NCBI GenBank assembly: GCA_963995505.1 | Contig: OZ023199.1 | Span: 9,345,373 to 9,409,372 of the forward strand | Direction: 5' to 3' | Length of the DNA stretch: 64,000 nt | Origin: Hypericum androsaemum | Taxonomy: Eukaryota > Streptophyta > Magnoliopsida > Malpighiales > Hypericaceae | Position numbers and translations under genes: made by a program | The notes under the pieces: model-generated | Told to the model about the DNA's origin: nothing | Database searches by the model: none | Seen by the model: the letters and a program-made list of their open reading frames with translations, nothing else | Part shown: positions 10,301 through 52,249 of the stretch, one piece after another | Position numbering within the stretch: position 1 is the first letter of the stretch | Layout of the letters: each line of letters starts with the position of its first letter

Positions 10301-11078
10301 AAGAATTATATCCCACATTTTTCCTTAATTACATACGTGTGCTCGTCGACCAAACATGACCTAAACTAAAAAGAGACCAAACACAGACTACTATCAATCA
10401 TTAACAATAATATGATGTTTTATACCGTCAAACACTTAGATCAACCAGAAATTTAACTAATTCTCAAGTTTGAATTTTGATAATCAGTTTAAAACTCGGT
10501 GAGAAATTACATCAGTGTTTGTGATCCGACCCGACTCTAGATTGATCGCTTCGATAAAAATATGGATACCAAGTAGTTACAAATAGAAACTTACTGAGCC
10601 ACTGACATTGAGAAAGAAAATAAATAAATAAATATGAGCTTACTTGGAAGCAAGTGACAGCCTGGAAGCACCTAAGCTCCTGAGAGAAATCGGGCAACCC
10701 GATGGTGTGGTGGAGGATCCGATTCGTCCCGTGGTCGTTGGAGTTGGGCCCACCGGCTATGCATATCACCGGCAGGTTCTCGCTGTATGCCCCGGCGATC
10801 GCGTTCAGCACGCTGAGCCCGCCGACGGTGAACGTCACGGCGCACGCGCCGACTCCGCGAGCCCGCGCGTAGCCGTCGGCGGCGTACCCGGCGTTGAGCT
10901 CGTTGCAGCAGCCGACGAGTCGCAGCCCCGGCTCGGCCAGCAGGTGGTCCAGCAGCGCCAGGTTGAAGTCCCCGGGCACGGCGAACACGTCTCCGACGCC
11001 GATCTCGACCAGCCGCCGGGCCAGGTGGCTCCCCAGGGTCCCGCCCGGGGAGAGGGGAATCGGGCGCGTGGAATCCAT
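7398..11078 (-). CDS. PDC: pyruvate decarboxylase, seven exons
   Basis: Thiamine-diphosphate- and Mg-dependent enzyme that converts pyruvate to acetaldehyde and CO2, the first step of ethanolic fermentation, acting in the cytosol. Exons in transcript order are 11078-10644, 9652-9489, 9304-8743, 8612-8524, 8428-8311, 8014-7826 and 7568-7398. The sum is 1728 nt, or 575 residues plus stop, slightly short of the usual 590-605 because the N-terminus is brief. All introns are GT..AG and every phase closes. Visible motifs are [13 protein letters not shown], the cofactor-activating Glu in [16 protein letters not shown], the His pair in RILHHTIG, the ThDP/Mg motif GDGSFQ...INN, and the C-terminus SRPPNPQ. 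Exon 1 is very GC-rich while the introns are AT-rich, as in many plant PDCs. Hypoxia induction is known for the family, but I saw no clear anaerobic element. Confidence 0.96.
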
Positions 11079-11190
11079 GCGCGTGTGTGAGGAGTGTGTG
11101 ATGATGTGTTCAAAGGGAGGGACACGTGGCAGACGTATTGGATTATTAGTGGAGGTTTAGGGTGGTTTTAGGGAGTAATTAGGGAGGGAG

Positions 11191-11299: not shown

Positions 11300-12704
11300 A
11301 GCCCTGTCCTCATCCATGACATTTCTCAAGTTGGAAAATTATTGTTTTTTGTTTGTCAAAAAAGTTTGGTAGTCGGACCAATACTATACTGATTAATCAA
11401 AATTTGTTTGAAGTCGACTACAAATTCGAACCGGTTTGAATCACCGGATAAATCGGCAATTTCGAGATTAGACGAACTTCAAGTAGACTATCTATCGAGG
11501 CAAGGTTCGGGTTGAGGTTTGGAAACCTTGTGGCGCGGTCCAGTTTAGGAACCATAACTGCCGATTTTCGAACCACGGATTCCGCGGTTCAAAGGCTCGT
11601 AACCGGGGCTACTTGTGGGTGTGTCTCCAAGTATACAGTGTTATGTAGAGCAAGTCTGAATATTGATCAACGACAAAACTTATAATTAAGATAAAACAGC
11701 TAATTGCAGAAAGATATAAATATAAAGCTTACCGGTTGGTTTTAGTTTACATAGGTCTTCTCATTGAAGGAACACAAATACCAGGAGATGGGTTTGACGC
11801 TTAAGACGTGGTTCCGCCAGTTGGTTTGGGTCTGACTTGGACTCAATTGGAGGGTTCTACTCTAAGTTCTAGATGCTTAAGGTGTTATTTAAAGTTTTCG
11901 AGTTTAAACTCTTTAGAATGAAATAAATTTTGTAAGAGTTTAGTCGTCCCTAAAAAGTATCACTTGATTTTTTTTAAAGATAAATTTTATACAAATGTCA
12001 GAGTTTGAACTTTGAACTTCTAAACTATTTACAATGTTTTGTGTCGTTGAGGTACACGCCTTTTGGTAAAAAAGTTTCACTTGATTCAAATCTAAATTAA
12101 TCAACATAATAATAACGGGATACAAGGTAATTTATCATGTGAGATTTTAGACTCTTGTCGAGAATAATTGGCATTAATTTAATGTGCTGGGATTAGATGA
12201 GTTGATTTTTTAAATTTAATATAAAAATAGTAATACAGTGAATATTGATATTCTTTAAAATTTGATTGAAATTATTTTTAAATAAAAAAATGGAAACCAA
12301 GAACAAAACACTACACCTCGGCAAATACCAGTTCAGCGAATGTGCGTGGTTTACTGGGTTTTCAATTGATCGGCCGCCGTGGGACCACTTTCCGGTTCCC
12401 AAGGACCGCAACACGTGCTATATCAGATGCATTTTCGAGTTTTGTTTATGTAAAATTAAAAATACATCAATCGACTGATAAAAATTAATCTAAGTAATAA
12501 AATACTTGCATTAATTTAAAGAAGTTTTGGTTTTAAATTTCAAACAACCTACAAAAATTCATTAACAAAATTTTATTTTATCAGTCGGATGTTGACACTT
12601 TAGAGCAGTCAAAGTTGTCTCTTCACTTGCATGTCCACCAAAGACAGCTGAGCAGTAGTTAATAGGCAGCAAGTGGTGTGGATCAATTCTAGTCTTTTGA
12701 TCCT
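11300..12704. other. intergenic, no gene seen
   Basis: AT-rich DNA with short frames lacking recognisable domains. The segment 12570-12714 is less AT-rich and is the insertion target of the fold-back element that follows. Confidence 0.5.
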
Positions 12705-12953
12705 CCATAACTTGAGTTTTTTTGCTGGTGGGGGTCAAATTTTCTAACAAATTTCAGAATAGGGTTGTCAGAAAAAGTTTTCTTTGTCTGGGGTTGGTAA
12801 GAAATCGCACAAAATGTTGCAGTTTTATTTGCAAAAAAACCGCACAAATTAGTGCAGGTTTTGACCAAAAACGCACTATTTTGTGCGGTTTTAGTTGGAG
12901 CCGAGAGATGACAAAGTTTTGAGCCGGGAAAAAAGATCCAATAAAAATGTAGT

Positions 12954-13026
12954 TCTCTTGTTGTGATTCGAACTCATGACCTCCCACTTCTTCAATAGTT
13001 GCTCTAACCAACTGAGCTACGAGAGA
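12954..13026 (-). repeat. tRNA-like sequence in the left arm of the fold-back element
   Basis: This 73-nt tRNA-length segment has a six-of-seven-pair acceptor stem, a perfect D stem with GTAGCTCAGTTGG (A box), and GAGTTCGAATC (B-box-like). T-stem and anticodon-stem pairing is poor, so it is a tRNA relic, not a working tRNA. The central TTGAAGA resembles a Phe(GAA) loop, but I would not assign identity. Confidence 0.7.
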
Positions 13027-20938: not shown

Positions 20939-22560
20939 TTATTTTTTAATAGCTTAATCAAGAAAATTCGAATTCTATTTAACAAGAATGCAGCTATACT
21001 TATTATGAAATTTTGTTATTTCAAAAATATCACCTTTGAATATGTAAGTGTCTATATATATTTGGGTACTATTCACGTATCAATTAAGTAAAAGTAAGAT
21101 CCACGAAATAAGAAAAAGTCCAGATACTATCTCGTGATTTTACCATTTTCACTACAGGGGTCTTAGGCCTGGGTTGGTTTAAAATACTTGTATTTTTTAA
21201 TAATTAAATACTTGTAGTTTGCTCGACGATATTCTAGACAAAACTTCTCTCTCGGCCTCTTTAATAATTTTTGTAATTTAAATAAAATCCTCAAGAAATT
21301 CATTCGAAATAAATTCTTTCAAAACGTGTAGGAGTTACAAAAATTCCAAAAAAAATCAAAGAATTTATGTTGTGTATTTACATATAACATCAATAACCAA
21401 CTAAGCAAGACTATTTAATATATATAAACAAAATTTCTAATTTTAATCAATACAGCATAAAATTGTGGATTATTCTTAATCCGAATCCGACCTTCACATC
21501 TGCTCGTCGTTCCCGGTTTCTTTTAACCGTCAACAGGTCAATAAAAAATTTCCTATAACAAATGGAATTTTGTCCTTTTTTAAATAGGTATCGCGAGATA
21601 TTTTATGGTGGTTTCTCTATACCAAGTCATAAACCGTACCAACTAAATAGAGACATGTGGACAAATGAGGCCACTTCATATAATCTTGTGTAATGAGTAT
21701 TTAAAATATATAATCTTCTCATTAATGAAAAAAGTTGTCAAAAATTTTAGATTAAGTAATTGTGGTTCATTCCATGATAAATTCAATTAATTACGTTCTT
21801 TGTACCGAGTATTATTTTTACAAACTTAATGTGTTCCATGTATTAAAAAATTCACCGTAACAAAAAAAAGTTAGAAAATTTAGAGAATTCATAAAATATC
21901 TAAAAAAAATTAATAATAGATGATTTTCAAAAATATAATTTATTTTCTCGTTATAGAACGAACTTCTTTAACTTTTGTGTTTCAAAAGTATCTTAATTTT
22001 AAAAATGAATACCAAAGCTTTAAATCTTATAATCAACTAATAATGTGTAATATTCTAACCTACTAATCAATCTCCTTTTGTTTTTTTTGGTGAAAAATCA
22101 ATCTTCTTTTGTTGTGGACACCGACCATTATGATAACATAATTATTCAACTTTTTTTGCACCATAGATATCAATTTTTACTACACCTAAACTCTCCATGA
22201 TTTTTCATCAAACGTTGCATCATTTTCAATCTCCGAAATACAAAATATATTTATTTATAATCTCTAGTATCATATTTGTACGAGCATTAATTATTTTTTT
22301 AACGAATTGAGTCTCCACTCAGAAAAAGAAATTAACTTAAAATATTCAAGAATCAAGCTGATTATTTAATATAATTTTTTGTGACAACTTTTTATTTATT
22401 TTTGAAGACAGAAATGCGCCAAAATCAGTTAAGAATAAGATCCGAAACGTGAGAGTAGGTGGTAAGCACATCAAAGAGAAGTGTACCGAACCAGGATTTA
22501 GAGAGAGATAAAGGCTGATCCGGTTTATCGGAGTGGTACAACATACAAATACAAATACAA
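20939..22560. other. AT-rich intergenic, no gene seen
   Basis: Very AT-rich sequence without supported coding regions. The last part may be 3' flank of the BUBR1 remnant. Confidence 0.5.
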
Positions 22561-22816
22561 GAAAAGAACGTGGATGCAATCCAGGAGGCGAAAGCGTCCT
22601 CCTTTATCAACGAGGAAGGCTGTTTAGAGGAAAATTGCGTAAAGGATGCTCTCTCAATAACTCCGTCTCCTTTTTGGTATCGATGCTATCACCACCCGGC
22701 CTGAGCTGCAACGACAAGGGCTTTTCACCTTGACTATGTGACTTGTCTTTTGCGCATTCCTCGTCAACAAAGACTTCAATACAAGACATTCCTCTAGATA
22801 CAGGTCTTGTTGGGAT

Positions 22817-23364
22817 TGATGGGATCATGCCCACTAATAAGTGGTTGATAAAAGTATCTATTAGTGATGGGTGAAGTCTCCATTAGTGATGAGTGGAGTC
22901 TCCATTAGTGATGAGTGGATTAAGAAATCATGACATTCCTCTCTATAAAAGGAGAGATGATTTTCCATTGTGAGAGATATCCACAAAATGAAGAAAAACT
23001 CAAAGTATAAAGTTTATAGAGAAATAGATAGTTTACAAGTTCCAGAGAGAGAGAGCTTGAGGTAAAAATAGAGTGAGTGAAAATTCTCTACTGTAAAATA
23101 CGAGTGAAACACGAGAGTGGGATAACTCGGGGTATCGGGCAGTGAGGATATTTTTACCACTGTAGTTTCTCTATTTACTAGTGGATATTTTCGGAGCTGG
23201 TCCCGTGGTTTTTCCCTCTAGTATTTAGAGGGTTTTCCACGTAAATCTTGGTGTTCCCTCTTGGTGGTATTTTTTTTTTCCCATATACTTTTGACCGTGG
23301 TAATTATTAATTACCGGGATAAATTTTATTTACCGCTTCTGCTGCACGAGTCAAATTTTCAACA
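22817..23364 (+). repeat. 5' LTR of the Copia element at 22817-27639
   Basis: 548 bp. It contains a probable TATA (tctataaaagg, near 22943) and a run of short repeats of the type ccattagtgatgagtgga near its start. Confidence 0.92.
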
Positions 23365-23366
23365 AG

Positions 23367-23379
23367 TGGTATCAGAACC
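23367..23379 (+). promoter_or_regulatory. primer-binding site of the Copia element
   Basis: tggtatcagaacc lies two bases after the LTR, the usual form complementary to initiator tRNA-Met. Confidence 0.85.
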
Positions 23380-23413
23380 TTGGCTTTGTAGCTGAGATCT
23401 TTGTGCGTTGAAG

Positions 23414-26400
23414 ATGGAGGACAAGCCTGTCGAAAAAGCCATCAAGTTGACTTCGTCAAATTATGCCGTCTGGAAGACTCTGATGATGGATGTTTTATAT
23501 TGCAAGGATCTTTTTGATCCTATTGAGTTAAAAGGTATAAAAGATGAGGCAATAGCAGATGCTCTCTGGAACAAGATGAATAGCAAAGCCTGTGGGTTAA
23601 TTCGACAGTCGATTGACCCCAGTCTTATTCACCACGTGGCTGACGAGACGGATGCATTTAAGCTCTGGGAGAAGCTGGAAAATTTGTTTGAGCGGAAAAA
23701 TGCTATTGACAAGGCTTTTCTGCTCAAACGGCTTATCACAGCCACATACCGTGATGGATAAAATGCGTCTGAGCATTTGAGTACGTTCCAGGAGTTTGCA
23801 AATCGTCTAGTAGCAGCAAAGGTTCAGCTAGACGATGAGTTGCTGGCTTTGATGTTGCTGAATTCCTTGCCAGATAGTTGGGAAACACAAGTTTGACATT
23901 GTCTATGGTCAAGGATAGTATCCTGAATGAAGAAACTCAGAGAATAGAGAATGGCATGATGAGCTCTAGCAATGAGGCCATGGTCACAGAGAACCGTGGG
24001 AAAGGCAAGTTTGAAGGAAGATTCCAGTCGAGAAAAGGACTGGAGTGTTACTATTGTGGCAAAGAGGGGCACTTTAAAAGAAATTATAGATTATTCAAGA
24101 AGAAGCAGGGAGGCGAGCAGAAGAATGAGAATGACCAAAGAGCTACCACATCTACACTAGAGGAGGTTGCATTATTTTCTTGTGAAGAAGATATTTGTGC
24201 GGTCAGTGATTCGTACACTGAATGGGTCATTGATTCTGCTGCATCATACCATGCAACTCCCCACAAGGAGATGTTCACCTTGTACAGAGCAAGAGACTTT
24301 GGCAAGGTTAGAATGGGGAATAGCAGTTTTGTTAATATTGTGGGAGTTGGTGATATTTTGGTCAAGACAAATGTTGGCCATAAGTTAACATTGAAAGACG
24401 TCAGACATGTTCCTGATCTGCGTCTGAACCTGATATCTAAAGATGCCCTGGATGTGACTGGTTTCCATAGCCATTTTGGCAATGGATTATGGAAGCTGAC
24501 TGCAGGAGATCTAGTTACAGCTAGAGAAAAGATATCTGGTACACTTTACAAGACTCAAGTGAAGCTGCTTGGAGATGAGGTGAATGTAGTAGAGGACTCT
24601 ACCTCACCAAATCTGTGGCACAAGCGGCTTTGACACTTGAGCGAGAAGGGAATGAAAGCATTACGGTCCGTTGTTCCAATTGCCATAGACCAGGTGTTTG
24701 ATCTCTTCAAGAAGTTTCATGCTATGGTGGAAAGAGAGAAAGGTACATCCTTGAAGTGTATCCGGTCAGACAATGGCGGGGAGTACACGTCAAAAGAGTT
24801 TGAGCAGTATTGCGCAAACCATGGCATCAAACATGAGAAGACAGTTCCAAGCACCCCACAGCACAACGGTGTTGCAGAGAGAATCAACAGAACTATAGTG
24901 GAGAAAGTGAGATGCATGCTCAAAATGGCTAACTTGCCTAAGCTGTTATGGGGGGAAGCAGTTCGTGCTGCCTACTACCTAATCAATCGGTCTCCATCAG
25001 TTCCGCTAAACTATGACACCCCAGAGAGAGTGTGGACCGGTAGAAGTGTTTCTTACTCATATTTGAAGGTGTTTGGATGCAAAGCTTTGGCTACAGACTG
25101 TGGGATCTAGAGAGAAAGAAAGTCATCAGAAGCAGAGATGTAGTGTTTCATGAAAATGAGACATGTTCAACCCCAGTAATAACAGAGGCAAGGATAGAGG
25201 CTGGTGGTGGAATTGATTTGGCACCTGAATCTTCTCCAATGACAACTGGTGGAGAAGATACAGATCAATCTTTTTGGGTGGGTGCTGAATCAGAAGAGAA
25301 TTTTAATCAGGGGGAGCAAACGCCTGAGGTTGGCGAAGTAACTTCGAAATCTCAGGAGGATGAGCAACTCAGAAGGTCAACAAGACAGATGATGTTGTCA
25401 ACCAGATACTCCAGTTCTGAGTATGTCCTTGTCACTAGCGAGGGGGAGCCAGAGAGCTTTGAAAAAGTCCTGGAGCATGAGGACAAAGCTCGATGGATGG
25501 AGGCTATGCTTGAGGAATTGAGTTCTTTGAGAAAGAACGGTACTTATGAGCTTGTGGAATTACCCCAAGGAAGGAAGACCTTGATGAACAAATGGGTATA
25601 CAAGGTAAAACGAGATGGTGATAATCTCATAAAATACAAGGCTCGGCTAGTGGTGAAAGGTTTCAGCCAGAAGAAAGGCATTGACTTTGATGAAATATTT
25701 TCACCAGTCGTAAAGATGACCTCGGTTCGAGTAGTACTTGGACTAATAGCTAGTTTGAATCTGGAGTTAGAGCAAATGGATGTCAACACTGCTTTCCTCC
25801 ATGGTGATTTGGAGGAGGAAATCTACATGCAGCAACCTGAAGGTTTTCAGGAGAAAGGGAAGGAAGATCTGGTGTGCAGGTTAAGAAAGAGCTTGTACGG
25901 CCTGAAGCAAGCTCCTAAACAGTGGTACAAGAAGTTTGACTCATTCATGATGAGTCATGGCTATACCAGGACAAACGCATACTATTGCGTTTACATCCGT
26001 AGATTTTATGATGGTAAATTCATAATTCTTTTGTTGTATGTGGATGATATGCTGATCGTTGGACATGATGCTGAGATGATAAAGAAGTTGAAAGAAGATT
26101 TATCAAAGTCCTTTGACATGAAGGATCTTGGTGTAGTAAGGCAAATTCTGGGCATGCAGATTATTCATGATCGACAAGCTAGGAAGCTGTGGTTATCCTA
26201 GGAAAGATACATTGAGAAGGAACTAGAGAGATTCAATTCAAAAAATGCGAATCCAGTCAGTACACCTCTTGCTGGCCAGTTTAAACTCAACAAGAAAGCA
26301 TGTCCTACAACAAAGGAGGAGAAGGAAGACATGGCAAAGGTTCCATACTCCTCAGCAGTTGGGAGTTTGATGTACGCCATGGTATGCACGCGTCCAGATA

Positions 26401-26990
26401 TTGCTCACGCAGCTGGTGTGGTGAGCAGGTTTCTCTCTAACCCGGGGAGACAACATTGGGAGGCTGTGAAATAGATCATAAAATACTTACTAGGCAGTTC
26501 AAAAATGTCTTTGTGCTTTGGAGGCTCGGAACCAATCTTGGAAGATTTTTCAGATGCAGATATAGCAGGAGATATTGACTCCAGAAAATCAACTTTTGGA
26601 TATCTGTTTACTTTTGCAGGGGGAGCTGTGTCATGGCAGTCCAAACTGCAGAAATGTGTTGCCCTATCTACAACTGAGGCAGAGTATATTACAATGACCG
26701 AGGCAGGAAAAGAGTTGTTTTGGTTAAAGAGGTTCCTTCAACAGCTGGATTTGGAGCAAGATGAGTATGTGATTTACAGTGATAGTAAAAGTGCTCTAGA
26801 CCTGAGCAAGAATGCCACCTATCATGGTCGCACTAAGCACATTGATATTCGGTACCATTGGCTCCGAATGGCCATTGAAGAGGGGAGATGACGTTCCAGA
26901 AGATTCATACAGATAAGAACCCTGCTGATATGTTAACAAAGGCAGTGCCTCGTGAGAAACTCCAATTCTGTGCTAGGTCATCTGGCACGG
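23414..26990 (+). pseudogene. Copia gag-pol remnant
   Basis: Gag starts at 23414 and meets a stop at 23759. The frame resumes near 23878 with a zinc knuckle CYYCGKEGHFKRNY whose last Cys is Tyr. The protease site reads WVIDSAASYHATP, with Ala replacing the usual Gly after DS. Integrase is internally deleted: the zinc-binding HHCC region and first catalytic Asp are gone, while SDNGGEYTSKEFEQY and the HNGVAERINRT segment remain. Reverse transcriptase (25077-26201) keeps [25 protein letters not shown] and YVDD. In-frame stops follow at 26199 and near 26474. RNase H ends near 26891 with a frameshift, then DKNPADMLTKAVP-like sequence. It cannot encode its own mobility. Confidence 0.93.
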
Positions 26991-27050
26991 GGGTTCATCA
27001 TTAAGCTCAACCAGAAAGTTTCTCCCTCAAGTGGGCATGAGGAGAAAAAT

Positions 27051-27639
27051 TGATGGGATCATGCCCACTAATAAGTGGAAGATAAAAGTATCCATTAGTG
27101 ATGGATGAAGTCTCCATTAGTCTCCATTAGTGATGGGTGGAGTCTCCATTAGTCTCTATTAGTGATGAGTGGAGTCTCCATTAGTGATGAGTGGATTAAG
27201 AAATCATGACATTCCTCTCTATAAAAGGGGAGATGATCTTCCATTGTGAGAGATATCCACAAAATGAAGAAAAACTCAAAGTAGAGAGTTTAGAGAGAAA
27301 TAGATAGTTTCTAAGTTCCAGAGAGAGAGAACTTGAGGTAAAAATAGAGTGAGTGAAAATTCTCTACTGTAAAATACGAGTGAAATACGAGAGTGGGATA
27401 ACTCGGGGTATCGGGCAGTGAGGATATTTTTACCACTGTAATTTCTCTATTTACTAGTGGATATTTTTCGGAGCTGGTCCCGTGGTTTTTCCCTCTTGTA
27501 TTTAAAGAGTTTTCCACGTAAATCTTGGTGTTCCCTCTTGGTGGTATTTTTTTTTCCATCTACTTTTGACCGTGGTAATTATTAATTACCGGTGTAAATT
27601 TTATTTACCGCTTCCGCTGCACGAGTCAAATTCTCAACA
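27051..27639 (+). repeat. 3' LTR of the Copia element at 22817-27639
   Basis: 589 bp. It is longer than the 5' LTR mainly because the tctccattag(t) repeat block near 27110-27190 has expanded. Confidence 0.92.
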
Positions 27640-28438
27640 GGGATCTTGTCTTGTGCTTTCATCTTGGACTTGGAACTCCATGTACAAAGCATATACTATA
27701 TAGAACACTCCCCAATTTTGTTGGAATCAAGGAAATTATAAAATGACCTCCGCATCTACACAGTTCTCAGCATATTCTAACCAGACTTTGAGGTAACACT
27801 GGTCATCTTTGTACTGATCCAAATGCCAACAACTCCAGATGAGTCTCCCCCCCGATTGGAAATGCCTCCTGAACCCACTCTATGCACTCCAGCCATGGAA
27901 GGAGTGGAGTAATCATCAATTCCCTGGATCAACTTCCTCCGGGTTTCGAGTAGAGAGAGGCCTTGAGTTGATTCTGGGTATGAGATTTGAGTGATTGGTT
28001 CAATTGACCATCATTATGCCCTCTCTTCAAAGGCCTCACCTTCTCCTTAAAGAGCTCCCACTCGGTCCCCATCTCTTCCATCAGCGCTATAAACTCCGTC
28101 TCCGCATCCACAACCACCTCGTTCCTCGTCCCTTCTACCTCTGCCATTGCTTTTTCTCCTATACTCCTTTCCTCTCAAGAAGGAACGAAGACCGACCAGA
28201 AGAAGGGTATTTCGGGAACCGGAAATCTGGACACTTGGGTGTGGGAAAGTCTCGATCTTGGTGGCGAAAGCCAAAAGGTTAAGAAAATGGATAGGAAGAT
28301 TAGGGATGGAGAAAATTCTATACCTTAAATATTCATTATACTAGCTTATATGAAATGACCTTATTTGTCCACATGTCACTATTTAGTTGGTAAGGACATA
28401 CCAAACTATCAAATGACATGGTATAGATAGACCACCAT

Positions 28439-28865
28439 GGGTATGGATTGGGTACGGAATGCCCAGATTCCGAACCGTTCAGAATGAAGACACGCGGGAA
28501 CTTTTTTGTAAAAATGTAAAAATACAGGGACCAAAATAAAAAAAGTCACGCACAAACACAGGCCTGAAACAAATGCCATTATGACATAACTGCGAATACC
28601 AGTATCACATAACAGTGCATGCCAGTATCACATAACTGCGCATGCCAGTATTACTTTTTTGCAAAAATGCTAAAATATGAGGACCAAAATGAAAAAAGTC
28701 ACGCACGCCATTATCATAAACGGGACTTGCCGCTATCACAAATACACATGCCATTATGACATAACTGCGCATGCCATTATGACATAACTGCACTTGCCAG
28801 CGCGAACCCCCCTTCACTCCAAACCGTTCGGAATAATTTCTTCACTCCGTACCCAATCCACTCCC
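28439..28865. mobile_element. MITE of a Mutator-like family, copy 1
   Basis: 427 bp. The ends gggtatggattgggtacgg (left) and ccgtacccaatccactccc (right) are inverted repeats. The target duplication gaccaccat is perfect and 9 bp long (28430-28438, 28866-28874), which fits Mutator-like elements. The paralogous position in copy B (near 31335-31343) has a single gaccaccat and no insert, a true empty site. The interior has short tandem repeats around catgccagtatcacataact. Confidence 0.93.
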
Positions 28866-28874
28866 GACCACCAT

Positions 28875-29457
28875 AACGTTTCTCGTCGCGCTCCTTTTTA
28901 TAAGGGGTTGTTTTTTTGGAAGGTCCAAATCTGGAGGCTAAAATACATGTATAATTTACGCGGGAAAATTATTGCCTCACACTTTTAACGCCACGAGCTC
29001 AGACGAGGATCTTGGCTCCCTTCTGAAAACTTTCTTCAAGAATTCCCGTCGGTCTCCTACCTTTACGAGTCCCTGGATACAAAAAAAAAACGATATTGGA
29101 CATGGCGCTATATTGAAGAATACCGAGGCTAGGTTCAGCACGGTAATATTTTGTTTGACCAAGTTGCTTAAAAATGTGTACGGACTGACAGAATTTTAAA
29201 ATTACTCTTTAATATCATTAAATAAAAAATTGAAAACATGAATCAGACAATATGAAAAAAATCATATGAAAAAACCAACGAAAGAGAAGTGTTTTCAATT
29301 TTGATTTATTTCTCAAACAAATTTAAAACCAAAATTTTCCTAACTATGTTTAAGTGTGTCTTTGTCTAAAAAATGCAATTAAATAGTGGGTATCAACCGG
29401 AGAAACATCTTTCACATAATCGAGTAGTGGTGTACAAGTCGATCAAACCACATAATA
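28875..29457. other. BUBR1 upstream / TNL downstream spacer, copy A
   Basis: Non-coding spacer shared with copy B at about 31344-31985. Short frames such as the one at 28972-29199 are also seen in copy B (31447-31716) with a different end, but have no recognisable domain. Confidence 0.5.
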
Positions 29458-31050
29458 CTAGAGTAATTTTTTACCTTTGTTCTTTTTTTTTATAAATAAT
29501 TTTTTTAACCTTTGTTCTAAGTCAACTTTAAAGACTAAACTGGAAAATAAACTATTTACTAGCTTGTTTTGAGAATTGAGAAATGTCTTACAGAATGTAG
29601 CCCGGCTCCGTCCCTTTAAGCTTCCAGGGGCAGATTCTCTGATCATCTTCTCCTGTACTTTCAGGTTCGAGTCCTCGTGGATTTTCCAGATGGAGAAACA
29701 GCAGTTTTTCCTCTTCTGCTCAGAAGCTAGCTGTTCCTCTAGCTTGGCTATCATACTTTTCAATCGATCAATCTCCGCATCCTCGGATTTTGTATTCTGC
29801 GCAGTTGCTTCCTTCTTTGCCATCAGATCCTCGTACTTCTCCTGTGGTGTTTGGATTTTCGAATCCAATTCCTGCATTCCAGAGTTTTCATTGTTAGAGG
29901 GTTCGGTCGGTAGACCCCATGGTTAGAGAATAATAATGAGTACCTCAAGGTGACTAGTTGGCTCGAAATGTTGAACTGTCTGTGCTTGAGACGACTGAGC
30001 AATTTCAATGGTACCATTCACAGGAATCGAGCGAGCAGAAGTTACATGCGCTGCGCACGCCAAATTGACGTTACAAAACAAAGAGCAAGCAACAAAGAAG
30101 AAAAAAATGTGTATTAGCTTTCGGGTACCATTTGAGACAATGTCTGAAGAATGTCCTAACAAGCTAGTAGTTGATGATCCCTCAGTCGTATTGTCGTGGG
30201 GTTGCAAGAGTTTCGTGCAGCCGGCAATGTCAATTTTTTTAGGGGCCTTCTTCAACTCATAGATACTTTCAAGATTAGTCAGCATTGTGCATTTTCTCAG
30301 ATATAAATATTCCACGTTTCTTGGCAGGGGAGGAAGTATCTGGAGATTGGAGCAGTCTGAGAGATCAAGGGTCGTCAAAACCTCTGAGCCGGCCAGACTC
30401 GGAAGACCGTTAAGATAAGAGCAAGCATGAAGGTTTAAGTACTCGATCATGTTCAGGTGCTCAACGGATGAGACATCAACCAACCTTCTACAATTTTGGA
30501 GATTCAAGTGCTTAAGCTTCTTGGCCTCTGATAAATCCGGTAGCTTTATCAAGTCCGAGTGCTTGAGGTCAACAACTTTTAGGTACATGAGAGGCTGCAT
30601 CCGAGTTTCCAAGATCAACAGCAAGAATAGTGAAAGAAAGAAAAGCAACGTGCAAGAACTTGGGTTGAAGGTAATAAGAAAAACCTGCTTTTCTTCCCAG
30701 AGCATTTCGATACTGCTGTACGGCAAGTGAAGCTCGACAAGATATTTTGCAAAAAAACCCAGCGGCAATACTTTGGCAGGAAATGCATCCCAACGGAAGT
30801 ACTTCAGTCCTTGGGAAATAGAAACAAAGTAATCACCCTCAAGTTGGACGTTGCAAGTTTGTCTATCATACTGCGGATGATTATCGTAATGCGGATGATA
30901 GAAGTTGAACAATCTGAGTCCTGACATCTTCGTGAAAGCTTCACGTTTCAAGGGCATTATTTCTGATTTAGACATATCGAAAAATATGCCTTCAACTTTT
31001 AGAGATCCCTCCACAACCACCTCGTTCCTCGTCCCTTCTACCTCTGCCAT
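29458..31050 (-). CDS. chimeric gene: BUBR1 start fused to TNL leucine-rich-repeat and coiled-coil exons
   Basis: Exons are 31050-30685, 30594-30129, 30050-29944 and 29871-29458. The sum is 1353 nt with all phases closing, giving 450 residues. Residues 1-13 (MAEVEGTRNEVVV) are the BUBR1 N-terminus. From EGSLKVEGIFFDMSKSE on, the sequence is TNL exon 3: AFTKMSGLRLF, LKYFRWDAFPAKVLP and LVELHLPYSSIEMLWEEK. The next exon has LRRs (LKVVDLKHSDLIKLPDLS, LTTLDLSDCSNLQILP). The last exons give a charged tail with heptad-like IDRLKSMIAKLEEQL. The 90-bp first and 78-bp second introns are open and multiples of three, so unspliced RNA is also readable. There is no TIR or NB-ARC. The promoter would be the duplicated BUBR1 upstream DNA. 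Expression is unknown. Confidence 0.72.
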
Positions 31051-31059
31051 TGCTTTTTC

Positions 31060-31985
31060 TCCTATACTCCTTTCCTCTCAAGAAGGAACGAAGACCGACC
31101 AGAAGAAGGGTATTTTGGGAACCGGAAATCTGGACACTTGGGTGTGGGAAAGTCTCGATCTTGGTGGCGAAAGCCAAAGGGTTAAGAAAATGGATAGGAA
31201 GATTAGGGACGGAGAAAATTCTATAACTTAAATATTCATTACACTAGATTATATGAAGTGATCTTATTTGTCCACATGTCACTATTTAATTGGTAAGGAC
31301 ATACCAACTATCAAATGACATGGTATAGATAGACCACCATAACGTTTCTCGTCGTGTTGCTCCCTTTTATAAGGGGTTGTTTTTTTGGAAGGTCCAAATC
31401 TGTCACAGGAGGCTAAAATACATGTATAATTTACGCGGGAAAATTATTGCCCCACACTTTTAACGCCACGAGCTCAGACGAGGATCTTGGCTCCCTTCTG
31501 AAAACTTTCTTCAAGAATTCCCGTCGGTCTCCTACCTTTACGAATCCCTGGATACCAAAAAAAAACGATATTGGACATGGCGCTATATTGAAGAATACCG
31601 AGGCTAGGTTCAGCACGGTAATATCTTGTTTGACCGAGTTGCTTAAAAATGTCTACGGACTGACAGAAATTTTAAATTACTCTTTAATATCATTAAATAA
31701 AAAATTGAAAACATGAATCAGACAATATGAAAAAAGATCATATGAAAAATACAACAAGAGAGAAGTGTTTTCAATTTTGATTTATTTCTCAAACAAATTT
31801 AAAACCAAAATTTTCCTAATTATATTTGGGTGTCTTTGTCTAAAAAATGTAATCAAATAGTGGATATCAACAAGAGAAACATCTTTCACTTGGTCAAGTA
31901 GTAGTGTACAAGTCGATCAAACCACATAATAACTAGAGTAATTTTTTGACCTTTGTTCTAAGTTAGACTAAACTGGAAAATAAAC
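31060..31985. other. spacer of copy B: duplicated BUBR1 upstream region
   Basis: Non-coding. It equals the BUBR1 promoter-side DNA of copy A (28157-29450 without the MITE) and would now serve as promoter for the chimeric gene that starts at 31050. Confidence 0.55.
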
Positions 31986-33585
31986 TACTTACTAGCTTGT
32001 TTTGAGAATTGAGAAGTGTCTTACAGAATGTAGCCATGCTCCGTCCCTTTAAGCTTCCAGGGGAAGATTCTCTGATCATCTTCTTCTGTGGGTTTTCCAG
32101 ATGGGGAAACAGCAGGTTTTCCTGTTCTGCTCAGGAGCTAGCTGTTCCTCTGGCCTGGCTATCTCACTTTCCGATCGATCAATCTCCGCACCCTCCTGTG
32201 GTGTTAGGATTGACGAATCTAATTCCTGCATTCCAGAGTTTGCATTGTAATAGAGTTCGGTCGGTAGACCCCATGGTTAGAGAATAATGAATGAGTACCT
32301 TAAGGTGACTAGTTGGCTCGAAATGTTCAACTGTCTGTGCTTGAGACGACTGACCAATTTCAATGATACCGTTCACAGGAATCGAGCGAGCGGAAGCGAC
32401 ATGCGCTGTGGACGCCGAAGTGATGTTACAAAACAAAGAGCAAGCAACAAAGAAGAAATAATATGTGTATTAGCTTTACGGTACCATTTGAGACAATGTT
32501 GATACTCGTGCTTCCAGGGGCAGATTCGCTAATCATCTTCTCCTGTACTTTTTTCAGGTTCGAGTCCTCTTGGATTTTACAGTTGCAGTTATTCCTCTTC
32601 TGCACAGAACCTAGCTCGGAATGTTCAACTGTAGCCTGCGTTTGCGACGACGACTGACCAACTTCAGAAGTACCATTCGCAGGACTCGAGCGAGCAGAAG
32701 CTACATGCGCTACATAAACCGAAGGGACATTACAAAAACAAGGAGCAAGAATCGAAGATGAAATAATATGTGAATTAGCTTTACGGTACCATTTGAGACA
32801 ATGTTGATCCTCGTGCTTCCAGGGGCAGATTCGCTAATCATCTTCTCCTGTACTTCCAGGTTCGGGTCCTCATGGATTTTACAGTTGCTGCTATTCCTGT
32901 TGTGCTCAGAAGGATTTTGTTTCTTTAGCTCGGCTATCACACTTTCCAATCGAGCAATCTCCCTTTTCAATTGATCATTCTCCGAACCCTCGGATTTCGA
33001 ATCGGATTCCTGCATTCCAGAGTTTGCATTGTTAGGGAGTTCGGTCAGTAGACCCCATGGTTAGACAATAATAATGAGTACCTCAAGGTGACTAGTTGGC
33101 TCAGAATGTTCGACTGTAGCCTGCGCTTGAGACGACTGACCAATTTCAATGGTACAATTCACAGGAATAGAGCGAGCAGAAGCTACAACATGCGCTGCGT
33201 ACGCCGAAGTGATGTTACAAAACAAAGAGCAAGCAACAAAGAAGAAATAATATGTGAATGTTACCATCTGAGACAATGTTGATCCTCGTGTTGTCTGAAT
33301 AATGTCCTGCCAATCTAGTACTTGATGATCCTTCAGTTGTGTTCTCCTGGAGTTGCAAGAGTTCCATGCAGCCGGCAATGTCAATATCTCTAGTGGCCTT
33401 CAACTCCCAGATACTTTCATCAAGAATTGTCAGCATTGTGCAATTTGTCAGATATACATATTTCAGATTTCTTGGCAGGGGAGGAAGTATCTGGAGAATC
33501 GAACAGTCTGAGAGATCAAGGGTCGTCAAAACCTCTGAGCCGGCCAGACTTGGAAGACCATTAAGATAAGAGCAAGCATGAAGGT
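31986..33585 (-). pseudogene. amplified 3' exons of the TNL (out of frame with its 5' part)
   Basis: Two exon types alternate. One encodes AHVASARSIPVNGTIEI..TSHLE. The other encodes a charged coiled coil with KIHEDPNLEVQEKMISESAP. Transcript order from the LRR is 33744-33265, 33194-33082, 33009-32790, 32709-32485 (a fused pair), 32405-32299 and from 32225 on. All boundaries have GT and AG in place. The chimeric gene has one such pair and this locus has about three. Because of the frameshift near 33597 these exons are not read in the frame of the TIR-NBS part, unless a second start is used. Confidence 0.75.
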
Positions 33586-36334
33586 TTAGGTACTCGATAT
33601 CTTCAGGTGCTCAACAGATGAGACATCAACCAAACTACTACAATTTTGAAGATTCAAGTGCTTAAGCTTCTTGGCATCTGATAAATCCGGTAGCTTTTTC
33701 AACTTCGAGTGCTTGAGGTCAATCACTTTTAAGTACGTGAGAGACTGCATCCGAGTTTCAAAGATCAACAGCAAGATTGATTTAGCTAAAGATAGAACTT
33801 CTAAAGAAAGAAAAAAAAAAGCAACGTGCAAGAACTTGGGTCTAAGGTAATAAGAAAAACCTGCTTTTCTTCCCAGAGCACTTCGATACTGCTGTATGGC
33901 AAGTGAAGCTCGACAAGATATTTTGCACAAAAACCCAGTGGCAATACTTTGGCAGGAAATGCATCCCAACGGAAGTACTTCAGTCCTTGGGAAATAGAAA
34001 CAAAGTAATCACCCTGAAGTTGCACGTTGCAAGTTTGTCTATCATACTGCGGATGATTATCGTAATGCGGATGATAGAAGTTGAACAATCTGAGTCCTGA
34101 CATCTTTGTGAAAGCTTCACATTTCAAGGGCATTATTTCTGATTTAGACATATCGAAAAATATGCCTTCGACTTTTATAGATCCCTACAAGCAAGAAGAT
34201 ACTAGTTAAAAGTAAGCTCAGAATGCAAGTGAGATTATAGTTTGACTGCTACTTACCATACTTCCGGTCAAGCAATTCCGGATATCATCTGCATCCCACA
34301 ACCTACTCCGTCCTCCTGGATCTTCACTTTCTTCTTTGACGATTTGCTGACCCACTTGTCCATGCAATTCGTTCATATTGAGTTGGTTGCTCAAAATACT
34401 TATCAAAGCCTTACTCTTCAGAATTTTAAATGCCCTTTCCGGTATGAAACCACAGGCATCTAGAATATCTGCAACTGTGTCCTTGTCCATTCCGTTGAAA
34501 AAGCATGCAATATCAAGAAATACCTTTTTCTCCAACTTGTCCAATCCATCAATGCTCACTTTTAGCATCTCTGAAATCGCCCGGTCAGGAATGTTTTTCA
34601 ACTTAACCAATTCCCATTCCCATTCTGCCACAGACTTGTTGGACTGAGATGATCCGAGGATCTCCAGAGCAAAGGGATTGCCTTGAGCATAATCCACAAA
34701 TTTATGGGACAACTCCAAGTAACCATCTTTTGGTTGGTTCTGCTTGAAGGCACACCGACTAAAGAGTTGAAGAGCTGCATCAGTTGCTAGAGGCTCGACC
34801 TCATATATATGATCCACCCCGTGTGCAGTAAGCAGATCTCTGTTTTGAGTTGTAACGATGATTCTGCTTCCAGGACCAAACCAGTTACACTCTTTAGCCA
34901 ACAATTGTAACTGTCGCAAATCATCTACGCCGTCCAGCACAACGAGAACATTTCTATTAGAGAGCCTTTTCTTTATGATGTTGGAATCGTACAAAGGCCA
35001 TCCAGTAAGGTCTTTCTCCTTAAATATTGCAGACAGGAGTTCTTTTCTCAAAGCAAACTTACCCTTTCCCTTCAGAAATTTGTGTCCAACGTCGGCAATA
35101 AAGCAACAAGCTCCAAACTTTGAACGGATCTTATCATGGACGACACGGGCGATGGTACTCTTGCCAATCCCTCCCATACCCCAAATTCCTACAATGCGAA
35201 CCGAATCCGAATCGACATATAATTTCTTCAACATTTCCTCCACATGAGCACCAATCCCGACCAAATCACTACTATCATATGAGAATGCACAGTTCACCTT
35301 ATCTGAAACATCTCTAACGATGTCCGAAACAAGATCAGCTTCATTCCTGCCAGACAAAAGAGTAAAAATGAGGCAGGCCGATTAGCACTCATTTAACTCA
35401 TTCAAGATCATCTCTAATTTGTATTTAGGAGAAGAATAGGCTCATCAAGTACTTCAATCACTATGCACGTATCCTTAAGCCTTGGTTAAAGGGAGTGGAT
35501 AATGATTTTATAGAACTCTATTTGTATTTGTTGGATATATTCAAGTCTTAAACCCTGCACCCCTAAATAGGATCATCTAGTAATATATTACACTATGATA
35601 ACACAAGTCAGAGCTTGAACTCGTAATTCAATGATTTTGTACACTCCATGTTCCGTTAGACTACATGCCCTTTGGCAGATCATGTAGTAATTGACTAATG
35701 AGTAATGGACTTCGATTCAATTAAACAAATTTTGATTGAAAACTTACAAATGTAAAATATACAATTGAACCACTCGTAAATAGGGGCTAAAATAGAGCCC
35801 GATAGTACTCAAAACCTTACATCAGCAAGGTTAAGGACAAAAAAAGTACAGAGAAGAATAAAACCGTTACCTATTCCGAGAATCCCAGCCGCAAATGCGG
35901 GAGACGTAAGTCAAAGCATCCCTCCACCGCCTAACCGTCTCCTCCTCGACGCTCGCCGCATGTTCCGCAATCGCGGCCCCGAAACTCCCGCTCACCTCCT
36001 CCACGTCCGACGGATCGATGTCGTAGAAGACGGGGACGACGACGCCGTCCCTGCTCCTTGCTTGCTCGGCTATCTCCGTCAGCTCATCCAGGCACCAAGG
36101 CGAAGACGCGTAGTTCGCGGACAGGACGACGACGTAGAGGGTCGAGTCCCTGATGGCCTCCACTATCTCCTGTGAGATGGATCCCCCTTTCGGCAGCTTC
36201 CGGTCGTCCAAGAACGCGTATATACCGTTGGTGGTTAGCTTGTCATGCAGGTGGGCGACGAAGCTGAGCCTTGTGTCGCAGCCGCGGAAGCTGAGGAAGG
36301 CGTGGTACCTCCGGTCCTTTTTCGTGGCGGCCAT
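33586..36334 (-). CDS. TIR-NBS-LRR (TNL) immune receptor gene, truncated by a frameshift
   Basis: Intracellular NLR receptor. Exons are 36334-35871 (TIR), 35346-34257 (NB-ARC), 34184-33861 and 33744 on (LRR). Phases close through the LRR. The TIR has YHAFLSFRGCDTR, LPKGGSIS and SPWCLDEL with the catalytic Glu. NB-ARC has the P-loop GIWGMGGIGKSTIA, kinase-2 VLVVLDGVDD, RNBS-B GSRIIVTTQNRDL and GNPFALEILG (GLPL variant). At the MHD position it reads NMNELHGQVG, a strong departure. A one-base deletion near 33597, relative to copy A (tactcgatcatgttcag at 30450), shifts the LRR and stops at 33586, giving a product of about 675 residues. It could be a pseudogene or encode a short TNL. The frameshift is visible; loss of function is inference. 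Confidence 0.85.
35350..35870 (-). other. TNL intron 1
   Basis: 524-bp intron between the TIR and NB-ARC exons, AT-rich, with GT at 35869-35870 and AG before 35346. No nested element seen. Confidence 0.85.
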
Positions 36335-36480: not shown

Positions 36481-36882
36481 GGGTATGGATTGGGTACGGA
36501 ATGTCTAGATTTCGAACCGTTCGGAATGAGAACACGCAAGGAATTTTTTGCAAAATGCTAAAATACGGGGACCAAAATGATAAAAACTGCGCACAAACAC
36601 AAGCCTGAAACAAATACCGTTATGACATAACTGTGCATGCCAGTATCACATAACAGCGCATGCCAGTATCACATAACTGTGCATGCCAGTACGACTTTTT
36701 TGCAAAACTACTAAAATACAGGGACCAAAATAAAAAAAGTCACACGTGCCATTATCATAAACGGGACATGCCGCTGTCACAAATACACATGTCAGTATCA
36801 CATAACTGCGCTTGCCAACACGGTCCCCCTTTACTCCAAACCGTTCGAAATGATTTCTTCACTCCGTACCCAATCCAAACCC
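36481..36882. mobile_element. MITE of a Mutator-like family, copy 2
   Basis: 402 bp, with the same ends as the copy at 28439 (gggtatggattgggtacgg ... ccgtacccaatccaaaccc). The target duplication cgggttctg is perfect and 9 bp long (36472-36480, 36883-36891). It lies about 150 bp upstream of the TNL start codon, within the probable promoter. It has the same internal catgccagtatcacataact repeats. Confidence 0.93.
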
Positions 36883-44848: not shown

Positions 44849-46438
44849 TGAAAGGAAAGATTTTCACCCTTCTTGCAATAATGAGTAAGTAAGGGATTGT
44901 CGTCCCACAAGGACTAAGCTAGGCCGCAAACTCGACTTTATCACTAGTTTGGGACAATAATAAATGGAGGTGTCAATTCCAAATACGAATTGGCTACTAT
45001 AACGACTAAATACAAGAAGATTTAAACAATAAAGGAAAGAGTGGGCTTGGTGCCAATGACACTAAATAACCAAATGGCGTGTGGGGTTTATTAAGTTCGT
45101 GTTATGGTCCGGATGTTTCGAAGGCAACTAATCAATGCTCTCGCGACAAATTAGTCTAAATCGATTCTTAACTAGACTTAGATGAACTAACCACGCTCTT
45201 GCGACAAATTAGCCATCTAATCTAACTAATTACCAACTATACTTACCATCCTTTGGACAACTAGTCACCTAAGGTGATCTCTCATCAATAGGCAACTAGT
45301 TAACTAGTTAAATGGTCCGTCAATCCTAACCCCTCTCGGCGATTAGCATTAACTTAGTTCATAATCAAGGTGATCAATCAAGATTAAGCATTAAACACAT
45401 TAACTAGTTCATAATCCTTAACATATTAACCCCACAAACCAAAGGTTAAGTAGATGCCATTAAGGCACCTAACCCACAAATGAACTACTCACACATATTC
45501 AACATACAACTCAACACATCCATTGAACAAAGCAAGCAAAACAAGAACATTAAAAGATAGAGAAAGAGAGAGCTCAAAATGGTCTTCAAGCTTCCAATCT
45601 TCTTCCTTCAAGTTTCCTTCACAAGCTTCAACAATGGCTTCCTCTCCTAGCTTCTTCTTGGCCACGTTTTTCTCTTCTTCTCCTCTTCAATGGTGAATCA
45701 CGTTTTTTGCTTTGGAGGAAGAGAAAGAGGCAGCCACGGATTTTTGCTCTTGGAGAAGAGGAAGAGTGAATGAATGATGGTGAATGGTGTAGTGGGAGAG
45801 AAGGTGGAAGACAAATTGGCTCAAAATATGGAAGTGGAGCACTAATGTCTTAAGTTGTCCACTAAGGGAATCAAAAGAAGGCACTTATACTAGTTTTTGG
45901 CAAGAGAAGTGCCAGCCACGAAATTCACTATTCATGCCCAAAAATGGGCCCAAAACAAATCCTAAGATTTGGCCCACTCGTCAGATTTGTTGGTAGATTC
46001 GAAGGTCAATTTTAGACACGATTTTCCTCCCACTTGGACTCCGAATTTGAAGAAGTCCATGGATACAAAGTTGCAGCTCCGGATATCTTCTTTCCAACGC
46101 CACCTTGCTTGCCTCCATTGGACTTTGGATGAGAAAGTTATCGGCATTTGAGTCGCAAGGGGTCAGTTTTGGTCCACGCTCTCTTGGGTCTCGCAACACG
46201 CCAATCGTTCCGGCTGATCCGATCACCTATGACGCGTCCCTTGGCACACGAACGTCCACCATGAACCTACTAAGACTCCTATCAAGAAAGAATCACAATA
46301 AAAATCACAAGACTATACTAAAACGAACATAACACATAATACGAGACAATGATGTCAAATAACGAACAAACATACTAGAAACAATAGAAAATCAAAACTA
46401 AAACATAGACAGATGATAGAGTGTTTTCACACTCATCA
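44849..46438 (-). repeat. 3' LTR of the Athila-like element
   Basis: 1590 bp, plus-strand ends tgaaaggaaag and cactcatca. Confidence 0.94.
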
Positions 46439-49055: not shown

Positions 49056-52000
49056 TCATGCATCGGAGGGTGAGGTGATGGAGTGCACCTCCGAACTTCG
49101 TTCAACATCGCCACCAAGGTAACTCTTGCACCTTTGGCCATTTACCTTGAAGACCCCTCCATTACTTCGTTCCAATTTGAGGGTTCCAAATGGAAAAACC
49201 TTTACCACCTTGAAAGGTCCACTCCACTTGGACTTGTGTTTTCCCGGAAAGAGTTTCAAACGGGAGTTGTAGAGTAACACTTGATCACCCTCCTTGAACT
49301 CTTTCTTCGCGATGTGGGCATCATGTGATCTTTTTGTCTTCTCCTTATGAAGCCTTTCCAACCCTGGCTTGGCTTCCTCCTCCAAGTGGATGTAATGCAC
49401 AATCATGTCGGGATTTGTCCCCTTGATATCAGATTGTTGGCATGCCATGCCCTTAATCTGCTTGTTAAGCACTTCAAGTACCTTCTCCTCTTGCTCCTTA
49501 GAGAGCTTGTTGGAGATGATATTGGGGAGTCTTTCTTCATCCTTTAAGAATGCATGTCGTAAATGGGAGGGTAGCTCTTTCTTCTCCAAGCTTGGAGCCT
49601 TAATGATGGAAGGTGGAGTAGGATACTTCAAATCAAGCTCCGAATCTTCATGGAGAGTTCTTTTATCAACTTTTCCCACGAACTCTTCCAGGTTTTCCTC
49701 TTCGTGTTCTCCATCATTCTCTTCATCTATTCCATCTTCACTCTTCAATGAGCTCTCCTTGCCCAACTTGAGGACAGCATCTTCAACCATATCAATTTTC
49801 ATACACATGCCTTCATCAAGAGGGTGGTGCATTGCATTGGACATCTTAAACTCTACTTTCTCCTCCCCTATTCGGAGGACCAATCTTCCTTCATGTACGT
49901 CCACCAAGGCACGTTCCGTGTTGAGAAACGGTAGGCCAAGAATTAGTGGACAACTCTTGTCTTCTTCGTAATCCAACACCACAAAGTGCACGGGGAAGAT
50001 AAACTTATCAATCTTCAACAAGACATCCTCCACAACCCCGAATGGCTTCTTTATGGTTTGGTCCGCCAATTGGAGACGCAAAGAAGTGGGTTTCACCTCA
50101 CACAAACCAAGTCTTCTCATAATAGACAAAGGCATCAAGTTAATGCTAGCGCTTAAATCACATAAGCACTTGGGAAACTCAACATCACCAACAAAACCAG
50201 GAATAGTAAAACTCCCCGGATCTTTTAACTTTGTCGGGAGATCTTTAGAGATGAGAGAGCTACACTTCTCCGTGAGGGTCACCGTCTCTCCATCTTTCCA
50301 CTTCCTCTTCTTTGTGATGAGTTCTTTGAGAAACTTCGAGTATTGCGGCAATTGATCCAACATCTCAAGAAAAGAAACACTGATCTGGATGTTCTTCATC
50401 TTCTCCATGAAGCCAATAAACTTGTCATCCATCACATTCTTCTTCTTCAATCTTTGAGGGAATGGTAGTCGAGGAGCTTTAGGTGGTGGTGGCACATACT
50501 CCTCTTCTTCCTCAATCTCAGCAAAATGACTTTTCTCTTTCTCCACCTCTTTATTTTCCTTGGCATTCTTCTCTTTTTCATTGGCCTCCTCATACTTTTC
50601 TCTTGATTTTGGGCTCGTCTCTTGACAAATGGTTTCCTTGCCACTCCTCAAGGTAATTGCACTCACATTTCCTCGAGGATTAGCCTCCGTGGAGCTTGGA
50701 AGAGAACCGGATGCTCTGTGGGCACTTGCATTTGCTATTTGCCCAAGTCGCCTCTCCATATTATGCATGGCGGTTGCTTGACCCTTGAGGATTTGTTCAA
50801 GGTTATCTTGCCTTGATCCTTGTTGTTGTATGATGGCCAAAATTTGGCCTTGTTGACTAACCACCCCTCCGACTTCTTGTATGAACTTGTCCATCTTGTC
50901 GATCCTCTCCTCAATAGCTCCCATCCGATCCATCAAAGAGAAACGTGGTTGGAAACCCGGAGGAGGCCCTTGAGGTGCATTATGAAGAGGAAGTCCCTTA
51001 TCCAGAACAATTGCCATGTTATCTCCATTACTTGCTCCGGTACCCCTCCAAGAGAAGTTCGGGTGATTTCTCCAACCGGGATTATAAGTAGATGAATATG
51101 GGTTGTTTCCCATCCTATTTGCTTCTTGCCCTTGGCCACCCACGAAATTCACTTGCTCCATAGAAGAGCCCAACATGGCACACTCATTCATCTCATGGCC
51201 AACATTGCCACAAACTTCACAATTCGTCCTTACGGCTGCCGCATTGGTTTTGTTCAGGCTAAGATCGTTCACTTTTCTTGCCAACAATGCCAATTGGGCT
51301 TGAATAGAGGAGACAACATCAACATCAACATCAATCACTCCCTTTTGCTGGCTAATAGGTTGTCTTCCTCTCTCATTTGCCATAAGGATGTTTGTAGCTG
51401 CTAATTCTTCCACGATGTGGTAGGCATCATCCCTCTCTCTTCTCAAAAAGGATCCATTAGAGGCAGCATCAACCGTCCCCCTTGTAGAGGGTCCAAGACC
51501 AAAGTAAAAAGTTTGGAGTAAAGACTCCTCTGATATGTTGTGGTGTGGACAACTCCTTTGTAATCCCTTGAATCTCTCCCAAGCTTCACTCAACGACTCA
51601 TTCTCGAATTGTTGGAAGTTGCTAATCTCCTTCACGAGTCTATTGGTCTTGGAGAATGGAAAATACTTGTCAAGGAAGGCATTGGCTAGCTCTTCCCATG
51701 TCGTAATTGTTGTCCCAACTAGATCTTTATACCATATCTTTGCTTTGTCCTTCAATGTAAATGGGAATAACCTAAGCTTCACAGCATCATCGGTAGCTCC
51801 ATCGTGCTTGAAGGTATCGGCTATCTCCAGAAAATTAGCAATATGGTCGTTGGGATCTTCATTCGGTAATCCATAGAATTGGACCGAAGCTTGGAGCATG
51901 TGAATCACCGCTGGCTTGATCTCGAAGGTGTTAGCTTGAATAACAGGCCTAGGAACTCCATGAGAGACCTTCGAGGAACTCCAACTCCTTGCGCATCTCT

Positions 52001-52141
52001 TTGTGCGTTCATCCTTGCTTGAATTCTTCGCTCTTGTCGCAATGTCCTTTCCAAGTATCCAATGTCCACTTCTATTTCCACCGGTCGGTTGTTGGTGGAA
52101 CGAGTTCGGGGCATGCGACAAACAAGTACCTTGCAAGACAA
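49056..52141 (-). pseudogene. Athila-like gag-protease frame fused to the integrase C-terminus
   Basis: Gag begins at about 52114 (MPRTRSTNN) in one frame and continues after a shift near 51960 as one open frame of roughly 960 codons to 49056. Gag landmarks are FYGLPNEDPNDHIANFLEI, LRLFPFTLKDKAKIWY and the knuckle-like CEVCGNVGHEMNEC. The protease reads CDLSASINLMPLS near 50150, with Ser where the family has Gly after Asp-Leu. RT, RNase H and the integrase core are missing. The frame then jumps to KEFKEGDQVLLYNSRLKLFP and the GPF-type integrase tail (KWSGPFKVVKVFPFGTL). The deletion is in frame, which keeps one very long reading frame. Confidence 0.9.
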
Positions 52142-52247: not shown

Positions 52248-52249
52248 AT

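Follow-up and report, generated by a model that had tools for sequence, protein, structure and literature searches.

An apparently intact open reading frame that joins the first codons of the checkpoint gene BUBR1 to the leucine-rich repeat (LRR) part of a TNL-type immune receptor gene raises the question of how such a chimera came into being and whether it is a working gene. The frame lies at 29458..31050 on the minus strand of a window of 64,000 nucleotides from Hypericum androsaemum (contig OZ023199.1), which is the whole stretch of DNA analysed here. When read on the minus strand, it has four exons (31050-30685, 30594-30129, 30050-29944 and 29871-29458), GT..AG at the junctions and 450 codons up to the stop, corresponding to a product of 450 aa. 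The first 13 codons plus 1 nt (31011..31050, minus strand) derive from a BUBR1 retrocopy and are the same as 28147-28108 at 40 of 40 nt; in a self-comparison this match was part of a 332-bp block of 97% identity, which is far above chance. The remainder is TNL exon 3 and everything 3' of exon 3, the fusion site being 1-2 nt 5' of that exon. The first-pass annotation of this DNA, which had described BUBR1 start codons fused essentially at the splice boundary of TNL exon 3 and four GT..AG exons giving 450 residues without a stop, was borne out on each of these points. It should be noted that the C-terminus of the product is uncertain, since the codons beyond ~29528 use sequence that is located after a same-frame stop in the other copy.

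On the basis of Pfam matches at E<=0.01, the 450 aa contained LRR families (LRR_3, E 2.6e-7) and one weak match of the coiled-coil type, whereas no match was found to TIR, NB-ARC or C-JID, and the Mad3_BUB1_I (Mad3/BUB1) domain was absent as well. This agrees with the earlier description of the product as an LRR plus coiled coil lacking TIR and NB-ARC, the tail being coiled-coil-like. When the chimera was used as a protein query, a single match to one distant LRR protein was returned and no orthologue was obtained. Alignment across the exon 3/4 splice was unbroken in all three of the distant TNL proteins shown, and an intron at this position was also present in two paralogues from the same genome. 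On the other side, the chimera introns are 90, 78 and 72 nt long, each divisible by three, and introns 1 and 2 are without in-frame stops, so that the closing of four exons into one frame carries less weight.

The BUBR1 sequence in the window is in two pieces. Its 5' part (27640..28311, minus strand) comprises the leader and codons 1 to ~170 and is intronless and frameshifted, and its 3' part (22389..22807, minus strand) comprises the last ~74 codons, the 3'UTR and a poly(A)-like tract. Together they span about residues 4-168 and 307-380 of a Hevea homologue, the gap being filled by an LTR retrotransposon (22808..27639, plus strand; LTR pair, K2P 0.054) whose ORFs we take to be Copia-type. The remnant had 249 protein matches, with plant BUBR1 among the top of the best 120 of the 249, and its read-through matched Mad3_BUB1_I with E 5.8e-7 and 29.9 bits, just under the cut-off of 31.4. 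In the genome of the plant itself (385 Mb, 29 contigs), further BUBR1 genes were identified on C8 (88% identity over 66 of the 72 residues) and C7 (79%). Coding introns are present in both genes and missing from the window copy, and the 5'UTR intron of the C8 gene is likewise missing. The homology of the window copy to C8 begins at 28311 and takes in the leader exons, the coding pieces and the 3'UTR. Immediately after the 3'UTR homology stands the poly(A)-like tract AAAAATAAATAAAAA, which is short and decayed. Because coding and 5'UTR introns are missing and a poly(A)-like tract follows the 3'UTR, the window BUBR1 is, on this comparison, a processed retrocopy of an intron-bearing gene, closest to the C8 gene. 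No target-site duplication adjoined the ends of the retrocopy, the two sides having a 9-nt word in common away from the ends. Plant BUBR1 exon counts were not found in the literature searched, and genome comparison was used instead. The C8 (L002/L004) and C7 (L003/L005) genes show 78-88% DNA likeness over long stretches, including introns, and represent an older duplicate pair. In addition, an inverted repeat of ~130 bp (77%), at 21594-21720 versus 31212-31351 (also 28309-28438), flanks the retrocopy locus and is perhaps a transposon end or a MITE.

The origin of the BUBR1 piece bears directly on the sequence that might drive the chimera. The 5' leader of the chimera (31051..31214, minus strand; 164 nt) comes from spliced BUBR1 mRNA, as it matches the C8 5'UTR exons with the 5'UTR intron missing. 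Upstream of 28311, which corresponds to 31214 in the chimera, no match to C8 BUBR1 was found, the homology ending 164 nt 5' of the ATG. Next to the leader, on its upstream side, is local sequence that is not BUBR1 and has no C8 match (31215..31331, minus strand), the likely promoter region. Thus, the proposal that a duplicated cell-cycle-gene promoter drives the chimera did not hold: the BUBR1 piece is a copy of spliced mRNA, a duplicated BUBR1 promoter is ruled out because C8 homology stops at the start of the leader, and the chimera is without an inherited cell-cycle promoter. A motif scan placed a TATA-like site at -321 and an E2F-like site at -392 from the chimera ATG, both further up than 31215..31331. 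The AACGG (MSA) core was absent from the 1.2 kb upstream of the chimera in the same scan, whereas the C8 sequence has one AACGG, located by eye, ~65 nt above the point where the homology ends.

The order of blocks on the minus strand is full TNL, intergenic DNA, BUBR1 leader with 13 codons joined to TNL exon 3, TNL 3' end, intergenic DNA and BUBR1. According to self-comparison and the junction contexts, this is a head-to-tail repeat with the fusion point as its inner junction. The first copy of the duplication unit (31011..34185, minus strand), delimited by self-BLAST and piecewise alignment, runs from TNL exon 3 through the TNL 3' end and intergenic DNA to BUBR1 codon 13. The second copy (28108..31010, minus strand), delimited by self-comparison and alignment, includes the body of the chimera and a later transposon insertion. 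Comparison of three junction contexts placed the tandem-duplication junction at 31009..31011 (minus strand), with 1 nt shared. At the DNA level, the TIR and NB-ARC exons are single in the window and 100 kb on each side, and the BUBR1 3' part is present once within the window. As read from this arrangement, the chimera is a true in-frame fusion produced by tandem duplication across gene boundaries. The transposon in the second copy is a MITE-like element of 427 bp (28439..28865) with a 9-bp target-site duplication, ATGGTGGTC; since the first copy has the empty site (31332-31340), the element was most simply inserted after the duplication. A further copy of it (82%), at 36481-36882, precedes the start of the TNL by a few hundred bp.

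The relative timing of these events could also be examined. Over 204 columns of leader and first codons there were 13 differences, 10 of which were common to both window copies versus C8, 1 being confined to the chimera and 2 to the retrocopy, which indicates that retroposition preceded duplication. The LTRs of the Copia-type element differ at 29/557 sites (5.2%) and the window copies, outside a divergent tract described below, at 33/1105 sites (3.0%); since the LTR divergence exceeds that of the copies (z 2.1), it suggests that the retrocopy was already broken by the time of the duplication. If between 2.5e-9 and 1.3e-8 substitutions accumulate per site and year, the duplication is about 1-6 million years old.

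We consider it very probable that the locus arose by retroposition, then tandem duplication and then an in-frame junction, leaving a by-product with coding potential. First, the mRNA of an intron-bearing BUBR1 gene (closest to that on C8) was reverse-transcribed and inserted just downstream of the TNL gene, as the comparison with C8 shows. Second, a tandem duplication of ~3 kb began at the TNL exon-3 acceptor, took in the TNL 3' end and stopped at retrocopy codon 13; TNL exons 3 to the last were thereby present twice, and the second set came to lie immediately 3' of the leader and start codons of the retrocopy. Third, the break fell in frame and 1-2 nt short of exon 3, which makes the junction a single ORF. 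Three observations count against this origin: a breakpoint <=2 nt from the acceptor is a coincidence of ~1% if breakage is random, the divergence between the copies is mosaic, and no target-site duplication adjoins the ends of the retrocopy. If the chimera is transcribed, this would presumably be from sequence upstream of the retro-derived leader, and the product would be an LRR plus coiled-coil-like protein incapable of signalling alone; a protein without TIR and NB-ARC cannot signal as an NLR. The chimera itself is most likely such a by-product.

The source of the body is a TNL gene at 31965..36334 (minus strand), with TIR at 36334-35871, NB-ARC at 35346-34257, exon 3 at 34184-33861, exon 4 at 33744-33265 and repeated post-LRR exons, an exon pair being present in ~3 tandem copies (78-84% alike) at 32053-33290. 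The view that both parent genes are damaged was correct for the frameshifted BUBR1 copy and needs qualification for the TNL, which has a 1-nt deletion near 33599 in exon 4, a last exon 22 nt shorter than in the fused copy and a premature stop, but is open across TIR, NB-ARC and exon 3. Its best other matches in the genome were NLR genes on C10 (76%) and C14 (75%), with shorter matches elsewhere (nine candidates scored, at least 14 matches); in both of these paralogues, the NB-ARC and LRR exons were matched. The NB-ARC exon of the C14 paralogue (L030) is open, with a 376-aa ORF, and that of the C10 paralogue (L029) is split across two frames, so that the latter gene may be broken. Two other C14 sequences, L033 and L035, are similar to the chimera in its exon 5/intron 5 part (77 and 73%, respectively) and point to a TNL cluster on C14.

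Divergence between the two copies was not uniform. It amounted to 9.4% from intron 3 to ~220 aligned sites into the intergenic DNA and to 2.7% elsewhere, and the mosaic test gave a likelihood gain of 23.2, which was reached in 0/100 shuffles (largest 10.6). In view of this mosaic, simple duplication was not the whole history of the locus, which counts against the proposed origin in its plainest form. No close conversion donor for the 9.4% tract was seen among the matches listed in the own-genome search, and eight queries gave no DNA-level match within 100 kb. When changes were polarised by the C10 and C14 paralogues, the counts for the chimera, the full-length copy and unpolarised changes were 8, 0 and 2 in exon 3, 15, 20 and 13 in exon 4, and 5, 4 and 1 in intron 3, respectively. 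The exon 3 and exon 4 counts place the tract excess more on the full-length copy.

The same origin is compatible with a functional new gene under purifying selection, for example a decoy or regulator of TNL signalling, a reading that we consider rather unlikely. In its favor, when exons 3 and 4 were polarised with the C10/C14 outgroups, silent and replacement changes numbered 12 and 11 for the chimera lineage, compared with 3 and 17 for the full-length copy (Fisher P 0.023). Omega from simple site counts was 0.25 and 1.56, respectively, and at kappa 1-6 it was 0.27-0.41 (P 0.002-0.026) for the chimera versus 1.7-2.5 for the full-length copy. Also, both exon-4 indels of the chimera lineage (15 and 3 nt) are divisible by three and keep the frame, while in the full-length copy 1 nt has been deleted and 3 nt inserted, all as counted by eye from the alignment. 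The changes on the chimera lineage thus hint at constraint. However, pairwise dN/dS, a measure that the first-pass annotation had proposed for the LRR exons, was 0.72 (bootstrap 0.44-1.34; 355 codons), a range that includes neutrality. In the last exon, compared pairwise without an outgroup, 1 silent and 17 replacement changes were the opposite of constraint, and exon 3 alone, outside the mosaic tract, had 4 silent and 4 replacement changes on the chimera (P 0.07-0.18). Moreover, the silent changes of the chimera (12 over ~167 sites) were well above half of the flanking divergence, whereas its replacement changes (11 over ~607 sites) were about equal to it. This pattern is better explained by an older history under constraint than by constraint acting after the fusion, and constraint may predate the fusion. 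Polarising 35 residue differences by 105 distant TNL proteins gave 22 chimera-like, 12 parent-like and 1 tie, which was too weak for use.

The openness of the frame was assessed by simulating a neutral chimera. With substitutions alone, it stayed open with P 0.51 at 2.7% pairwise divergence and 0.10 at 9.4%; with frameshifts added at half or the full rate of the flanks, for which they were counted by eye in the aligned copies, the probability was 0.07 and 0.013, respectively. Since these values run from 0.51 to 0.013, the open frame as evidence of selection is suggestive only. Its earlier reading as a hint at selection therefore gains from the polarised counts of 12/11 versus 3/17, but the pairwise dN/dS is compatible with neutrality and the timing of any constraint is confounded by the mosaic. 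If the chimera acts at all, for which we see a limited chance, the likeliest mode would be that of an LRR-only decoy, or of a dominant-negative partner for TNLs related to it. It is distinctly unlikely that tandem duplication turned the leader of a retrocopied mitotic-checkpoint gene into the 5' end of an expressed LRR-coiled-coil immune protein under purifying selection, with the full-length TNL in decay; if true, this would be a plant fusion gene caught early, with all steps of its birth readable in one locus.

The same final block order would also result if the whole TNL-BUBR1 pair had been duplicated and the part from BUBR1 codon 14 to TNL intron 2 then deleted. We regard this two-step origin as very unlikely: it requires one extra event, self-comparison of the window found no repeat reaching past TNL exon 3 or BUBR1 codon 13, and the TIR and NB-ARC exons are without a second DNA-level copy within 100 kb on either side. 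An assembly artefact, in which two heterozygous haplotypes were wrongly joined in tandem, is extremely unlikely, for although copies 3-9% apart with a transposon in one of them might be divergent haplotypes, the overlap at the join is just 1 nt, the join keeps the frame and coincides with an exon edge, and the window is without Ns and inside a 14-Mb contig.

Compared with known systems, retroposition followed by tandem duplication is a variant of a described route. Going by their names, TNx, TN2 and CbCN are TIR- or CC-NB types, whereas the chimera keeps just the LRR and tail, under a foreign leader. With the plant BUBR1/MAD3 checkpoint protein, it has the leader and first 13 codons in common, that is, 13 residues and nothing more. 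Judging from titles and the openings of abstracts, the literature searched gave no description of this fusion and no match for a plant BUBR1-leucine-rich repeat gene fusion. In Drosophila, tandem duplications that ignore gene boundaries are reported to unite a gene's 5' end with the 3' end of the gene next to it, often with a change in expression; 15 Drosophila yakuba lines yielded 76 chimeras of this type, of which 24 showed increased expression (Rogers et al., 2017, PMC5460883). The present chimera resembles these in its 5'/3' join at a duplication junction, with a new leader and an old body; it differs from them in that the 5' donor is a processed retrocopy and the body a plant TNL. Thus, the mode of origin is already known and the added twist is the retrocopy leader, and the expectation of something undescribed applies at most to this instance. 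Truncated NLR proteins acting in immunity, such as TNx (PMC9786959), are known, and the chimera is like them in its partial NLR architecture. The TNL Ma of Prunus has five post-LRR domains (PMC6141779), which the ~3 post-LRR exon-pair repeats of the full-length TNL recall in being repeated; the chimera is without a Pfam C-JID match at E<=0.01. NLR read-through chimeric RNAs are of another kind (PMC8116057).

The locus is an unusually complete record of gene birth in a plant, with the source gene, the retrocopy, the tandem duplication, the fusion, later transposons and an outgroup for each half in one genome. If the chimera is transcribed, one could ask directly whether a leader taken from a retrocopy is able to start part of an immune receptor, and whether selection acts on pieces of this kind; if it is silent, it would be a warning that an intact chimeric ORF by itself tells little about function.

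Several other features were observed in the window. A Lipase_3 ORF, an ORF for the N-terminal part of a TPP enzyme, a tRNA-Pro gene (ARAGORN) and an Rfam tRNA match were located at 3318-3971, 10512-11156, 11795-11888 and 12953-13026, respectively, the two tools disagreeing in that they place their tRNAs in different positions. Direct repeats of 1590 bp (44849-46438 and 52250-53839, 98% alike) flank a gag-bearing ORF (49056-52319) and mark a young Ty3-type LTR element, inside which a snoR71 match was found (51535-51641). Finally, an ORF at 61427-62218 (plus strand) matched NB-ARC with E 3.1e-15 and represents a further NLR piece nearby.
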